This document shows, one piece after another, positions 4,038 through 9,518 of a stretch of DNA of 64,000 bases (its first letter is position 1; each line of letters opens with the position of its first letter). Made by a program: the position numbers and the translations under genes. The notes below the pieces were generated by a model. That model was not told where the DNA came from. It made no database searches and saw only the letters and a program-made list of their open reading frames with translations. The DNA is from an uncultured Lachnospiraceae bacterium (GTDB lineage: Bacteria > Bacillota > Clostridia > Lachnospirales > Lachnospiraceae): contig CANQVH010000011.1 of the NCBI GenBank assembly GCA_947627245.1, positions 1-64,000 of the forward strand, written 5' to 3'.

Positions 4038-4955
4038 CTATTCTTCAGAAAACTCCCCGAGCAGCTTTACCTCCGGCTCCAGCGTGACGCCGGAATGCTC
4101 CCGCACGCGCGCGGCCACCTCCCGGATCAGCCTGTACACGTCCTCCGCCGTCGCCTTGCCTCTGTTGACGACAAACCCGCAATGCTTCTCGGACACCTGC
4201 GCGTCCCCGACCGAAAATCCCCGCAGGCCCGCTTCCATGATCAGCTTGCCGGCGAAATGCCCCTCGGGGCGCTTGAACGTGCTTCCCGCGCTCGGCACAT
4301 CCAGCGGCTGCTTCGCCACACGCTGCTGCCTCAGCTCCTCCATACGCGCGCCGATCTCCCGGGAATCTCCCTCTTGCAGTCTCAGTCTCGCGCCAAGCAC
4401 GATCCAGCCTCTCTCCGGGATCACGCTGTGTCGATAACCGAGCTCCAGCTCTTTCGCCAGCACTTTTTGCACCGCCCCATCGCCGGTCAGCACCGTGATC
4501 TCTTCGAGTACATCCTTCATCTCTCCGCCGTACGCCCCGGCATTCATCACCACGGCGCCGCCGACCGTTCCCGGTATCCCGGACGCGAACTCAAAGCCTG
4601 TCAGTCCATGCTCAAGCGCCCGCTTCGCCATCACGGAAAGCATCGCGCCCGCCTGTACGGTCATAGTATCTCCGTCAACGGAAATCTCACTCAGATTTTT
4701 GTAAATCTGCAGGATCACCCCGCGGTATCCGAGATCAGACACCAGAAGGTTGCTGCCGTTACCGATCACATAGAAGGGCACGCCCTGCTCCCGGCAGATC
4801 CGCACGATCTCCGTGGCCTCCTCCACCGTCCGCGGCACCGCGAAGACGTCCGCCGGACCGCCGATTCGAAACGTCGTATGGCGGCTCATGCTCTCGCTCG
4901 TCGAAATGCGATCCTCACCCACCGCGTGTATCAGCAATTCCGCTATATTCTGCAT
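4038..4955 (-). CDS. murB: UDP-N-acetylenolpyruvoylglucosamine reductase
   Basis: A 305-residue cytoplasmic flavoenzyme that reduces UDP-GlcNAc-enolpyruvate to UDP-MurNAc with NADPH, the second committed step of peptidoglycan synthesis. FAD-binding signatures are visible: HTTFRIGGPAD near residue 25, IGNGSNLLVSD near 75, SGIPGTVGGAVVMNAGAYGG near 125. The catalytic Ser lies in PSAGSTFKRP and the Glu in LEPEVKLLG near the C-terminus. The length fits the shorter (type II) MurB of Firmicutes. It heads the murB-rapZ-whiA-crh unit. Confidence 0.96.
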   Translation of the reverse strand: MQNIAELLIHAVGEDRISTSESMSRHTTFRIGGPADVFAVPRTVEEATEIVRICREQGVPFYVIGNGSNLLVSDLGYRGVILQIYKNLSEISVDGDTMTVQAGAMLSVMAKRALEHGLTGFEFASGIPGTVGGAVVMNAGAYGGEMKDVLEEITVLTGDGAVQKVLAKELELGYRHSVIPERGWIVLGARLRLQEGDSREIGARMEELRQQRVAKQPLDVPSAGSTFKRPEGHFAGKLIMEAGLRGFSVGDAQVSEKHCGFVVNRGKATAEDVYRLIREVAARVREHSGVTLEPEVKLLGEFSEE

Positions 4956-4996
4956 CTATTTCCCCCTGTTAAAACCAGCATTAGACTAATATATTT

Positions 4997-5401
4997 GTGT
5001 ATAGTTCAATACGATATACGGACGCCCGACAGGAATTGTCGATGCCAGTGCAAACACGCTTCCGCTCGAATCGGTCACGTAGCGGTGCATAAGCTCGCAT
5101 TCGCTCGCTAAGCACCGACGGCCCTCAACGGTTTGCCCTTGGCATCGCAATTCCCTGTTCGGGCTATGCGTAGTCTGCGAACGGAACAGCCGCAAAAGAG
5201 CCGGATGTTGCCTGCCCGCAAGCAAACGATAGGCAGTTCGACGCGGATTCGTGAGCATAGCGACAACTGTCGGAGCATGTTTGAGCGTAGCGAGTTTGCG
5301 GAGACAGTTGTCAATAAGCGGCGCAACGAATCAAGGAAAACAACTTGTTTGCGGTGGGCAGGCACATCGGCTCTTGCGGCGTCCGGTTGTTCACTATACA
5401 C
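4997..5401. repeat. 405-bp structured palindromic element with inverted terminal repeats
   Basis: No gene fits this 450-base gap. Its ends are inverted copies: GTGTATAGT at 4997-5005 and ACTATACAC at 5393-5401, then CGGACGCC at 5019-5026 against GGCGTCCG at 5378-5385. Inside are two long arms. Left arm: 5028-5055 (GGAATTG, TCGATGCCA, GCAAAC) pairs with 5131-5158, capped by a CGGTGC/GCACCG hairpin. Right arm: 5189-5225 (GCCGCAA, GAGCCG, TGCCTGCCC) pairs with 5344-5380, then GGATTCGT with ACGAATC, then GACAACTGTC (5262-5271) with GACAGTTGTC (5303-5312). A small hairpin (5157-5180) lies between the arms. This could be a non-autonomous mobile element or a structured RNA; no target duplication is obvious. 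Confidence 0.75.
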
Positions 5402-5405
5402 GAAC

Positions 5406-6578
5406 TTAGTGTACCCGCAGGATCCCGCTCTCGCGAATACTCTTCACAGCCTCCTCAAGCTTCTCCGGCGGCAGCACGAGCGCCAGCCGCACGTAGCCCT
5501 CGCCGAGACTTCCGAAGCTCGTACCCGGCACGCAGATCACGCCGGACTTTTCCATCAGCTCCAGACAGAATTTTTCTGAATTCGTATAACCCTCCGGAAG
5601 CGGAGCCCAAGCGAACATCGTACCCTCGCTGTCCGGGACGTTCCAGCCGATCTCACGCAGCCCTCCGCACAGCGCCTTGTTGCGCTCCTCGTATTTCGCG
5701 CACTGCTCGATCACGCAGTCGAACGGCCCTGTCAGAGCCGCGATCGCGCCGTACTGCACCGGCAGGAACGTCCCGTAGTCGAACTGCGTCCGTATCGCCT
5801 TGAATTTCTGAATGATCGCGGCGTTTCCGATCGCGAAGGAGACGCGCGCCCCGGTATAATTGAACGTCTTGGAGAGCGAATAAAACTCGATTCCCACGTC
5901 CTTCGCGCCTTCGTGATTCAGGAACGAGCTGCCGCGCTTGCCTCCGAACACCAGATCCGCATACGCGTTGTCGTGCAGAAGAACGATATCGTACTCCTTC
6001 GCGAAGGCGATCAGTTCATCATAGAAGCTGTCCGGAGCCAGCTTGCACACCGGATTGCCCGGATAGCTGAACACCATCAGCTTCGCATCGCGCGCGACGT
6101 CCTCCGGGATTGCCTTCAGATCCGGCAGATAACCGTTCTTCTCATACAGCGGATACTCCCAGATCTGCGCGTCGCATAGCTGCGGCCCGATGCTGAAGAT
6201 CGGGTAACCCGGATTCGGCACCAGCACCAGATCCCCCGGATTGCAGAGCGTCCATGCGATGTGCGTCATGCCCTCCTGCGATCCGTACAGCGCCATGATC
6301 TCATCCTGCGCAAGATCCAGATCAAACCTCCGCTTGAAAAAGCCCTGCGCCGCTTCGAGAAGCTCCGGAAGCTCCACCAGCGCATACTTGTAATTTTCCG
6401 GCTTCTTCGCCGCCTCGCTGACCGCGTCGATGATGTGCTGCGGAGGCCGGAAATCCGGAGTCCCGACCGAAAGATTGTAGATCGTCTTTCCCTGCTTTTC
6501 CAGTTCGTTTTTCTTTGCGTTCAGGACGGCAAAAATTCCTGTCTCGATTTGCATTGCCTTGTCTGAAAAGTTTCCCAT
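5406..6578 (-). CDS. PLP-dependent class I/II aminotransferase (internal start within the fused frame)
   Basis: Starting at the internal ATG at 6578 (MGNFSDKAMQIETG) gives 390 residues, the normal size of a free aminotransferase of the DapL/AspC type. AAGGAG lies 11 bases upstream. Visible motifs: PDFRPPQHI near residue 38, PNPGYPIFSIG, the SYPGNPVCK pocket, LHDNAYADL, and the PLP lysine in SLSKTFNYTGAR. C-terminal arginine region EGYVRLALV. It transfers amino groups between an amino acid and a 2-oxo acid; the substrate cannot be read from the sequence. Whether it is made as a separate protein, as a fusion, or both is open. Confidence 0.7.
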   Translation of the reverse strand: MGNFSDKAMQIETGIFAVLNAKKNELEKQGKTIYNLSVGTPDFRPPQHIIDAVSEAAKKPENYKYALVELPELLEAAQGFFKRRFDLDLAQDEIMALYGSQEGMTHIAWTLCNPGDLVLVPNPGYPIFSIGPQLCDAQIWEYPLYEKNGYLPDLKAIPEDVARDAKLMVFSYPGNPVCKLAPDSFYDELIAFAKEYDIVLLHDNAYADLVFGGKRGSSFLNHEGAKDVGIEFYSLSKTFNYTGARVSFAIGNAAIIQKFKAIRTQFDYGTFLPVQYGAIAALTGPFDCVIEQCAKYEERNKALCGGLREIGWNVPDSEGTMFAWAPLPEGYTNSEKFCLELMEKSGVICVPGTSFGSLGEGYVRLALVLPPEKLEEAVKSIRESGILRVH

Positions 6579-9518
6579 ATGTCCCGTTTCTCCTTCTTTA
6601 GATTGATCTGCAAGCCTGATGCGGCTTCGTTTCTCCAGTATTCCCGAAATCATATAAAGCGCCGCGCACAACAGCGAGAGGAAGGTGCCGGCCCACAGCC
6701 CTTTCGGCGTGTATTTCATCCGGATCTCGTGTATCCCGGCCGGAAGATGTACGCCTGTGAGCGCTTTTCCGACGGCGTAGCTCTCCGTCGTCTCGCCGTC
6801 CACCGTGATGCGCCAGCCGGTGTCGTAAGGGATCGTCAGCAAAAGCGTCCCGTCCTCCTTTGCATCCACGTTTCCGCTGACACGGTTGCCGTCCACTCTC
6901 ACGCTTGTGAGCTGGCTCTCGGCGAGCTTGTCACGCACCTGCTCATAAACCTCGTTCGCGCAGGTGTAGACCTGCGCCTGCACCGTCGACTGCCCGTCCT
7001 TCAGCGTCACCGTAAAGTCTGCCAGATCGCTCTCGTCCGACGCGTTAATCACATAGAGATGATCGGTAAAATCGTCAAACGACTTTGTGTACTCCGGCGT
7101 GTTCAGATTGATGTTTTCCACTCTCGTGTCGATGCAGAGGTAAACCTGTTTGTCCTCCGGGATCTTGATCCCGTAATTCTCCCCGTCCTCCATGTCGATG
7201 TAACGATCCAGCACGTAAATCGGCTCAAGCCCCGTCGCAAGCTCCACGAAGCTGTTCTGCACCTGAAGCGGCTCACCGGCCTCGATATCCCAGTCAGCGA
7301 TATCGTCTTTCACCATGAACCCGAGCGAGAGCGCGTTGTCGTTCTTGTACAGCGCGAGCTCCCCGTCCTCCGCGACACGCTCAAACTGATACATTGTACG
7401 CGCGACCTTCGACGGAGATGCCAGATAACGGATCCCGAGCACATCATTGACAAGCTTCGTCACGCCGAGGTATCCGTTCTTGTTCGTGCGCGCCTCGATG
7501 CCAAGGCTGTCGCAAAAATCGATGACCGACTCCTGCATCGTGGAATTGAACATCACCATCGCGTTTCCGCCCGCGTACATCGTCACATTGCGCATCCGCT
7601 GCCGGTCTACCTCGCTGCGGAAGAATTCGTCGTCATCCTGCTGCGCCATCATCGTCCGGTATGATTTCTGATCGTCGATGTAAATGCTCCGCGTCACGCC
7701 GTCGTTGCAGATGATCCCGTAGACCGCGTTGGCCGACACCTCGATCAGCGCCACGCCTGAGACGATTCCGCAGAAGATTTTAAACCGCACGCGTTTCGCC
7801 AGACGGCCGAAGAGCAGCAGGGCAAAATACAGCGTGAGCATGCCGAACGAAATGTAATAGACATAATCCTTGATCTCCCCGGTGCGCTGCATGTAATCCA
7901 CGGCGACAAACCCGGCCGTCGCGACCCACGAAAAGATCAGCTCCGGAAGATGGAAACTGCGGATGTGTCCCAAGGCATCATACGCCATCACAAGCAGAAC
8001 GGCGATATAGAGAAAGGCAAAGCGGTTCGGGAGTCCGTTCTGCACATGGAAGCCGTGCCAGATGTAATTCAGCATGTTGAACGAAAAACTGAGCAACAGC
8101 AGCGCGCACAGCCCCAGATGCGCCATCCGTTCGCGCAGGCGGATCTTTCCGTCAAAGACATAGAGCACCGCCAGCAGCACCGAGAGCATGCCACAGTATA
8201 CATTAAGGCCGACCTGAGAGTTGGAGATGTTGATCGGCGTCATGAACGCCATATGATTCTCGAGCAGTCCCCAAAGGCTCTCGTAGAATTTCACCGTCGT
8301 CGGGAAGGTGTTGCTCTGCATGGATTCGGACGCGCTCAATCCGGCATAGGCCGGGAGCAGCACAAGCGCCGCCATTCCGCCAGCCAGAAGCGCGTACCAC
8401 GCGAACGTCAGGCTGCTTCGCAGAACCTTTTTCGCGGTGATCCTGCGGCATGAGAGCCACCGCACGAGGTAATACAGGCACGAGAAGATACAGAGCATGA
8501 ATCCGATGTAATAGTTGCACCAAAGTCCGTAAAACAGGGACAGCCCGAACATCCGGCCGCTCTCACCCCTGACGATGCGCTCAATCCCCATCATGATGAG
8601 CGGCAGCATCGCAATACTGTCGAGCCACATGAGGTTGAAATAATATCCGATCACGAAATTGCTCAGAGCGAACATCATGCCGAACACGACCGGCAGATAG
8701 TTTCTCTGCGGATCCCTGCGGTGCAGATACCATGAAAAGCAGCCGCCGCAGAGTCCGATCTTGAACAGGATCACAAAATCCATGAAATCGCAGACATTCT
8801 CCCGCGGGATAAACGCCATCAGGAAATTCAGCGGGCTTGCCATATAGTACGCGTAGGTCGACCAGAAATTATACCCGAGTCCTCCCGAAAACGAATACAG
8901 AAGCGACTGGCTGTCCTGCAGCTTCCCCTGAAAGTCCGTATAAAACGGAAGGTACTGGTGCAGGGAATCGATGATCAGCACCGTGTTGTCCCCGAACGGC
9001 CACATACCGAACGCGACAAAACCGGCTCCCGCCACCAGCGCGGACAAAACGAATCCGGCCGCGAAAAATCTCCGACCGCGCCTTTTCTCTTCCTGCCTTT
9101 CGGCCGAGTCGGCTCCGGCATCCTCGTCCTTGAAGACTACGAAACGGCTGATCAGATAGTTCAGCACCATGATCACGACCTGAATGATCAGCTTTGCGAC
9201 CATGTCCTGCAGTCCCCAGACGCTGCTTAGCAGCACGACGCCGAACACTTCCACGACCATCGTCCCGAGGCGCATCCCGATAAAGCTCGCGGCTTCTTTG
9301 ACAAGCGCTCCCGCGGACGCCGCCCTGTGTTCAAACACAAACAGCTTATTTACCACATAGGCAAAGAGGATCGACAACAAGACCGCCACGGTATTTGCCA
9401 CCGTGACGTTCAATCCCGCCAGATTGCGCATTACATAGGTAAGCGCCAGATTCACAACGGTCGTACAGCCCCCGAAAAAAATGTAGCGGACTGCCTGATT
9501 TTGTACGAATTTTTTCAT
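5406..9518 (-). CDS. GtrA-YfhO membrane glycosylation protein fused in frame to an aminotransferase
   Basis: One uninterrupted 1370-codon frame. Residues 1-135 are a GtrA/GtcA-type four-helix flippase-like domain. Residues ~150-960 are a YfhO family polytopic protein (about a dozen membrane segments, then a large extracytoplasmic part and a final membrane helix); YfhO glycosylates lipoteichoic acid with GtrA-type partners in Bacillus. From residue ~981 the frame continues without stop into a complete class I/II aminotransferase. The linker encodes a Shine-Dalgarno sequence, so the aminotransferase may also be made alone (see 5406-6578). Either the upstream stop was lost or a base error hides it: a TAA exists in another frame just before the junction. 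The ATG overlaps the addA stop (ATGA), so it is in the addBA operon. Confidence 0.75.
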   Translation of the reverse strand: MKKFVQNQAVRYIFFGGCTTVVNLALTYVMRNLAGLNVTVANTVAVLLSILFAYVVNKLFVFEHRAASAGALVKEAASFIGMRLGTMVVEVFGVVLLSSVWGLQDMVAKLIIQVVIMVLNYLISRFVVFKDEDAGADSAERQEEKRRGRRFFAAGFVLSALVAGAGFVAFGMWPFGDNTVLIIDSLHQYLPFYTDFQGKLQDSQSLLYSFSGGLGYNFWSTYAYYMASPLNFLMAFIPRENVCDFMDFVILFKIGLCGGCFSWYLHRRDPQRNYLPVVFGMMFALSNFVIGYYFNLMWLDSIAMLPLIMMGIERIVRGESGRMFGLSLFYGLWCNYYIGFMLCIFSCLYYLVRWLSCRRITAKKVLRSSLTFAWYALLAGGMAALVLLPAYAGLSASESMQSNTFPTTVKFYESLWGLLENHMAFMTPINISNSQVGLNVYCGMLSVLLAVLYVFDGKIRLRERMAHLGLCALLLLSFSFNMLNYIWHGFHVQNGLPNRFAFLYIAVLLVMAYDALGHIRSFHLPELIFSWVATAGFVAVDYMQRTGEIKDYVYYISFGMLTLYFALLLFGRLAKRVRFKIFCGIVSGVALIEVSANAVYGIICNDGVTRSIYIDDQKSYRTMMAQQDDDEFFRSEVDRQRMRNVTMYAGGNAMVMFNSTMQESVIDFCDSLGIEARTNKNGYLGVTKLVNDVLGIRYLASPSKVARTMYQFERVAEDGELALYKNDNALSLGFMVKDDIADWDIEAGEPLQVQNSFVELATGLEPIYVLDRYIDMEDGENYGIKIPEDKQVYLCIDTRVENINLNTPEYTKSFDDFTDHLYVINASDESDLADFTVTLKDGQSTVQAQVYTCANEVYEQVRDKLAESQLTSVRVDGNRVSGNVDAKEDGTLLLTIPYDTGWRITVDGETTESYAVGKALTGVHLPAGIHEIRMKYTPKGLWAGTFLSLLCAALYMISGILEKRSRIRLADQSKEGETGHMGNFSDKAMQIETGIFAVLNAKKNELEKQGKTIYNLSVGTPDFRPPQHIIDAVSEAAKKPENYKYALVELPELLEAAQGFFKRRFDLDLAQDEIMALYGSQEGMTHIAWTLCNPGDLVLVPNPGYPIFSIGPQLCDAQIWEYPLYEKNGYLPDLKAIPEDVARDAKLMVFSYPGNPVCKLAPDSFYDELIAFAKEYDIVLLHDNAYADLVFGGKRGSSFLNHEGAKDVGIEFYSLSKTFNYTGARVSFAIGNAAIIQKFKAIRTQFDYGTFLPVQYGAIAALTGPFDCVIEQCAKYEERNKALCGGLREIGWNVPDSEGTMFAWAPLPEGYTNSEKFCLELMEKSGVICVPGTSFGSLGEGYVRLALVLPPEKLEEAVKSIRESGILRVH

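Follow-up and report, generated by a model that had tools for sequence, protein, structure and literature searches.

The window analysed here is a 64,000-nucleotide stretch of an uncultured Lachnospiraceae genome (assembly GCA_947627245.1, contig CANQVH010000011.1), in which the gap between murB and a gene with an aminotransferase domain contains a 411-bp palindromic element. The features of the locus are as follows:

4994..5404, no strand assigned: whole element, 411 bp, with a pair of terminal inverted repeats (TIRs), copies elsewhere and an empty site in genomes G042 and G039
4994..5005, plus strand: left TIR, TTTGTGTATAGT
5393..5404, minus strand: right TIR, reading ACTATACACGAA on the plus strand
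5023..5165, no strand assigned: left hairpin arm (module A), from an alignment of 21 representative copies
5183..5383, no strand assigned: right hairpin arm (module B), from an alignment of 19 representative copies
5262..5312, no strand assigned: inner hairpin, GACAACTGTC...GACAGTTGTC
5406..5408, minus strand: TAA stop codon that closes the upstream ORF, which carries an aminotransferase domain; it is 1 nt off the element, an instance of the -1 register described below
4038..4955, minus strand: murB, with its ATG at 4955 and 38 nt between start codon and element

A preliminary description had seen in this gap a palindrome with matching ends, two long imperfect hairpin arms and nested perfect 10-bp palindromes. 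All of these were located, with each of the true ends (4994 and 5404) 3 bp outside the position first given. The 12-bp TIRs are 92% complementary, and the pairing segments of the arms are 79% (5029-5047/5140-5158), 90% (5189-5198/5371-5380) and 82% complementary (5255-5271/5303-5319), the last containing the perfect 10-bp arms GACAACTGTC (5262-5271) and GACAGTTGTC (5303-5312). The predicted fold energy is -183.4 kcal/mol on the plus strand (z -6.97) and -174.2 kcal/mol on the minus strand (z -7.17), and none of 100 shuffles folded as stably on either strand. The GC content of the element is 54.5% versus 55.6% for the window, and mechanically called ORFs lying entirely within it do not exceed 97 aa. 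The upstream ORF (5406-9518, minus strand, 1370 aa) encodes GtrA, YfhO and class I/II aminotransferase domains with no stop between them.

BLAST of positions 4990-5405 revealed dispersed homologues, with 28 matches in the organism's own genome (3.84 Mb). Eight of these are near full length (408-467 bp, 80-100% identity), six of the seven other than the window element being 88-98% identical to it; the other 20 are partial, and some represent two pieces of one element. Within the genus, 11 of 47 genomes gave a BLAST match (E<=0.001), the own genome counted, and the TIR pattern TTCGTGTWTAGTTCAY with up to one mismatch gave at least 212 matches in 15 of the 47, whereas the reversed control gave 5; in four of these 15 genomes there is a single match, which is the control level, and for G042 the sites considered are those among the matches listed. 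An exact 16-mer of the TIR region was found in one of 397 genomes sampled from the family (one match), a strict query that misses even the window's own genome with its variable ends, in a sample that includes two genomes of the genus. Of 42 stretches that a search with a 19-20-base form returned across 84,980 species genomes, Lachnospiraceae MAGs named 'Lapin' account for 38; the remaining four, in unrelated records, were taken as chance, as were eight stretches with the exact 16-mer in viral contigs. Phage and plasmid records did not match the element, which is likely restricted to this one Lachnospiraceae clade. The copies adjoin different ORFs and, in G000, occur in both orientations relative to the neighbouring gene end, four presenting the right-arm end (L001, L002, L003 and L005) and three the left-arm end (L004, L006 and L012). 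Genome G028 carries a sister subfamily whose TIRs start as in the window element and whose interiors are its own (e.g. L174, L179 and L190). This subfamily probably breaks the assembly, because a contig end is found no more than about 100 bp from many of its TIRs.

Locus comparisons were made with one genome per species, that is, between species. A joined-flank query of the window locus found matches in 44 of the 47 genomes, and the site is empty in G042 (87% identity) and G039 (84%). It holds an element of about 60 bp in G040 and the beginning of a related element followed by the contig end in G033, and in G038 the contigs break just within the TIRs. A comparison of 24 further sites with nine genomes, using 40 stretches taken among the matches listed, identified additional empty sites (L115 and L108, each empty in both G035 and G000) as well as remnants, namely a TIR-only 32-bp hairpin in G039 at site L120 and solo TIRs in G033 at L121 and in G035 at L007. 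A coding scar is present at site L019, where the gene in G038 ends ..GTT CGC GTA TAA and that in G000 reads ..GTT CGT GTA TAG, running into the element.

The 42 elements measured range from 76 to 578 bp. At sites judged orthologous from their shared flanks, unlike interiors are found between the same ends, as in L002, L030 and L113 (411, 547 and 422 bp), L004 and L127 (413 vs 191 bp), and L109 and L119 (573 vs 492 bp); alternatively, unlike interiors at one site could be independent insertions. A unit of the Rfam family GA-cis (RF02987) lies inside the element in 6 of 19 related loci (59-62 bits, cut-off 34.7). It sits as an insertion in the left arm, according to an alignment of five arms with it and four without, the latter comprising three from relatives and that of the window element; at the window copy (4500-6000) neither RF02987 nor any other known RNA family matched at E<=1. 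Another hairpin module (GCAACGAGCC..., its arms being CTCGAAAAGCC/GGCTTTTCGAG) was observed in L014, L020, L153, L238 and L251, recurring between, or next to, the same ends as the element family.

GA-cis is also found outside the element. RF02987 matches occur in 24 of the 47 genus genomes (up to 62 in one, and none in the window's own genome) and in none of 14 control genomes, the copies (L296-L325) being dispersed and sometimes tandem. Eight of 22 copies inspected have confident coding DNA on both flanks, and seven of these, L311 being the exception, lie inside a single gene, in frame and free of stops. The genes affected encode oligoendopeptidase F, MurF, GH3 and arylsulfotransferase. In L312 (975-2204, minus strand) the insert is exactly 25 residues absent from oligoendopeptidase F 2h1j, and in L314 (1266-2792, plus strand) the alignment with MurF is interrupted between residues 84 and 120. 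The listed type of RF02987 is 'Gene; sRNA'; Rfam regards the family as a cis-regulatory candidate.

Many element ends are associated with gene stop codons. Distances to stops were taken from coding calls based on codon usage, trained on 27 window ORFs, in place of those from the longest ORF, which were biased. Merging of 195 distinct boundaries gave 167 clusters, and the 70 lacking a confident call were set aside. Each element could contribute both of its ends as separate boundaries, and the set probably includes a few TIR-like sites that arose by chance. The 97 confident boundaries comprise 48 gene 3' ends and 49 gene 5' ends. The TIR itself supplies the stop at 18 of the 48 3' ends (+11, inside the TIR) and the stop lies exactly 1 nt before the element (-1) at nine, the remaining 21 stops occupying 17 different distances between -92 and +20. 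One frame is common to 35 of the 48 stops (binomial p 2e-8) and is shared by 17 of the 30 outside +11 (p 0.007). Selection can explain the +11 peak, because no other frame runs into an early stop within the TIR. Frame selection does not account for the -1 peak, which contains nine of the 22 retained stops that fall no more than 20 nt away (post hoc p 4e-7 relative to a uniform distribution) and suggests a site preference. In the flanks, 23 of 36 sites have T at position -4 and the same number have A at -3, in part reflecting the stop codons themselves. In our reading, protein tails are swapped between orthologues (EDLEHIRV* vs EEIEQL* and EDTEA*; VNGFRV* vs VNEKE*).

Among the loci collected, no intact autonomous copy was recognised and no transposase was found between paired TIRs. 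Five TIR pairs are 650-6000 bp apart, three of them representing one stretch, and the sole wide pair with a long ORF (L244) was rejected as an autonomous copy, a nearer partner 191 bp away suggesting two elements. Inspection of single TIRs with no near partner, among the matches listed, recognised no transposon. Three transposase candidates were discarded as the source: PF01797, present in 25 of the 47 genomes but absent from the element-bearing G028, G033, G036, G039 and G040; PF01609, present in 4 of 9 element-bearing genomes; and an intact DDE transposase on G028:C26, which lacks such ends. The sister subfamily provides a lead. An open C-terminal transposase fragment of 164 aa on G028:C75 has its best match to NCBIfam IS701 (E 3.7e-16; 59.4 bits vs a cut-off of 150; Pfam DDE_Tnp_1, 22.6 vs 23) and is followed downstream by non-coding DNA resembling the G028 elements and then by the terminus TTCGTGTTTTCAAGAATTGAGTATTTCATACGATGCCCC, similar to the ends of those elements, which read TTCGTGTTTAATTCAAGAACTGAGTATTTCATACGATGCCCC. 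Besides itself, the fragment has one weak match in the 47 genomes, in G026. The G028 elements share the TIR of the window element yet have no BLAST match to it, so the window element is linked to the IS701 remnant by its ends only and the connection is a lead. A scan of 38 elements for target-site duplications, in 72 combinations of length and offset, detected none (best z 2.32), seven of 45 elements having been dropped as orthologous or near-duplicate sites; duplications may have been lost with age.

Like miniature elements of the MITE type, the family consists of short, dispersed, multi-copy repeats (BLAST copies, TIR-pattern matches, 76-578 bp) with TIRs and with empty sites in relatives; it departs from them in showing no target-site duplication (38 elements) and in not being AT-rich (54.5% GC), a trait listed for MITEs. 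Variable internal modules between constant ends are a feature of BOX-type repeats. As described in PMC3049150, BOX elements of Streptococcus pneumoniae likewise have composite modules between ends, a tight fold and TIRs in duplex, and of the 58 CDSs that overlap a BOX repeat, 36 take their stop codon from it. The likeness is by description, and the present family differs in that its interiors vary at orthologous sites and include the GA-cis unit, and in that its stops fall at two fixed registers, -1 and +11. QMITE1 and QMITE2 of Coxiella burnetii, likened by description and from a different host group, also involve gene 3' ends, functional genes being hit there with overlaps of a few bp (PMC5896051). 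The Rickettsia palindromic elements, as a review presents them (PMC10969869), are similar as short palindromic repeats and, in being in frame inside genes, resemble the GA-cis module of related elements, whereas the window element is intergenic and not an in-frame insertion in an ORF. The resemblance to IS701 (PMC2266710) lies in the G028 transposase remnant and in its terminus, which is like the G028 element ends, but the 4-bp duplications of IS701 are not seen here and the remnant scores below the curated cut-off. A search limited to open-licence literature found no published account of this repeat. The element is a new family of a known kind, with the duplication and AT-richness of MITEs lacking.

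We therefore consider it probable (roughly 75%) that the window element is one copy of a composite, non-autonomous MITE/BOX-like family of palindromic repeats belonging to one Lachnospiraceae clade. The non-autonomous mobile element offered in the preliminary description is supported by the dispersed copies, the TIRs, the empty sites, which are in relatives rather than strains, and the lack of a transposase found inside; loss scars, the presence or absence of modules and ends at gene stop codons were likewise observed. Fixed TIRs (TTCGTGTWTAGTT...) enclose swappable hairpin modules, and in the proposed mechanism a transposase, perhaps of the IS701 type, would recognise the TIRs and move the element in trans; a complete IS701-like source element would carry TTCGTGTTTAGTT ends. 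Insertions at gene ends may be retained since they cost the host little and since the TIR supplies a stop in one frame (nTT CGT GTW TAG). Turnover of the interiors would involve nested insertion and deletion, together with recombination or template switching that acts between arms and between copies and would also maintain arm complementarity. An influence on murB mRNA, if any, would be a secondary consequence.

Complementarity of the arms bears on the alternatives to this reading. In 21 representatives out of 43 left-arm sequences, 96.3% of cells pair and both sides have changed in 16 of 39 pairs. The left-arm covariation score (0.305 vs 0.186 in shuffles) was equalled by none of 500 shuffles and was at most 0.108 when the alignment was slid; one measure, 'further pair types', was lower than in all shuffles (28 vs 32.9), the other four being higher. 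The right-arm alignment holds 19 of 25 sequences (21 representatives were chosen and the two longest omitted), and in it both sides have changed in 5 of 65 pairs, a number equalled by 49 of 500 shuffles, with a covariation score (0.083) above all 500. Arm covariation is explained by maintenance of the palindrome as DNA no less well than by selection on RNA.

One alternative holds that the complementary changes arise by mutation, through template switching at quasi-palindromes, with no selection on structure, and that the repeat is inert debris left by old insertions. Template switching is reported to be a source of hairpins (PMC8794818), the changes are strand-symmetric, and the scars and TIR-only remnants represent decay. 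However, the 88-98% identity of six of the seven further near-full-length copies suggests some recent spread, and we regard this explanation as unlikely on its own terms, while compatible with a mobile repeat family as its last step. We judge it similarly unlikely that the element is a functional structured RNA that stabilises or attenuates transcripts from a 3'-UTR or intercistronic position, its fold being under selection and its copies arising by duplication. In its favour, left-arm covariation exceeds all shuffles and slides, the window copy would be in any shared transcript because it lies between two co-directional genes, and the right-arm consensus folds better on the plus strand (-92.6 vs -70.8 on the minus strand). 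The left arm leans the opposite way, though (-25.1 vs -32.2), orthologous sites differ in interior and length, and no promoter- or terminator-like match was found for the element. As GU-permitting folds favour whichever strand is folded (GU/AC in the left arm 52/13 on plus, 10/47 on minus), strand-neutral pair sets were relied on. These gave mixed counts, 5/10 and 17/8 in the left and right arms for pairs common to both folds and 57/50 and 58/64 for unions of folds, so that a consistent one-strand RNA signature (GU/AC mismatch asymmetry) was not found. Since the copies also adjoin different ORFs and keep no constant strand relative to the gene, the large RNA specific to the murB leader that had been proposed beside, or together with, a mobile element finds no support, whereas the mobile part of that proposal stands. 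The remaining possibility, chance palindromes in a single-copy spacer with neither homologues nor covariation, is refuted by the copies, with fold z-scores and covariation also against it, and carries practically no weight.

The preferred reading of a mobile composite family can be extended, tentatively, to a nested arrangement in which TIR pairs form a stop-tracking docking frame at gene ends and may take over the stop codon of the gene, hairpin cassettes are swapped between them, and the GA-cis cassette is an in-frame, protein-inserting palindrome, so that end-of-gene and in-gene parasites would be combined in one structure. In these genomes GA-cis, an Rfam family, appears to be a dispersed palindrome that often codes in frame, and its annotation may need revision; strong covariation need not imply a functional RNA. 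The family shows how a composite palindrome can be remodelled without leaving its site, with stop codons of host genes supplied by its ends.
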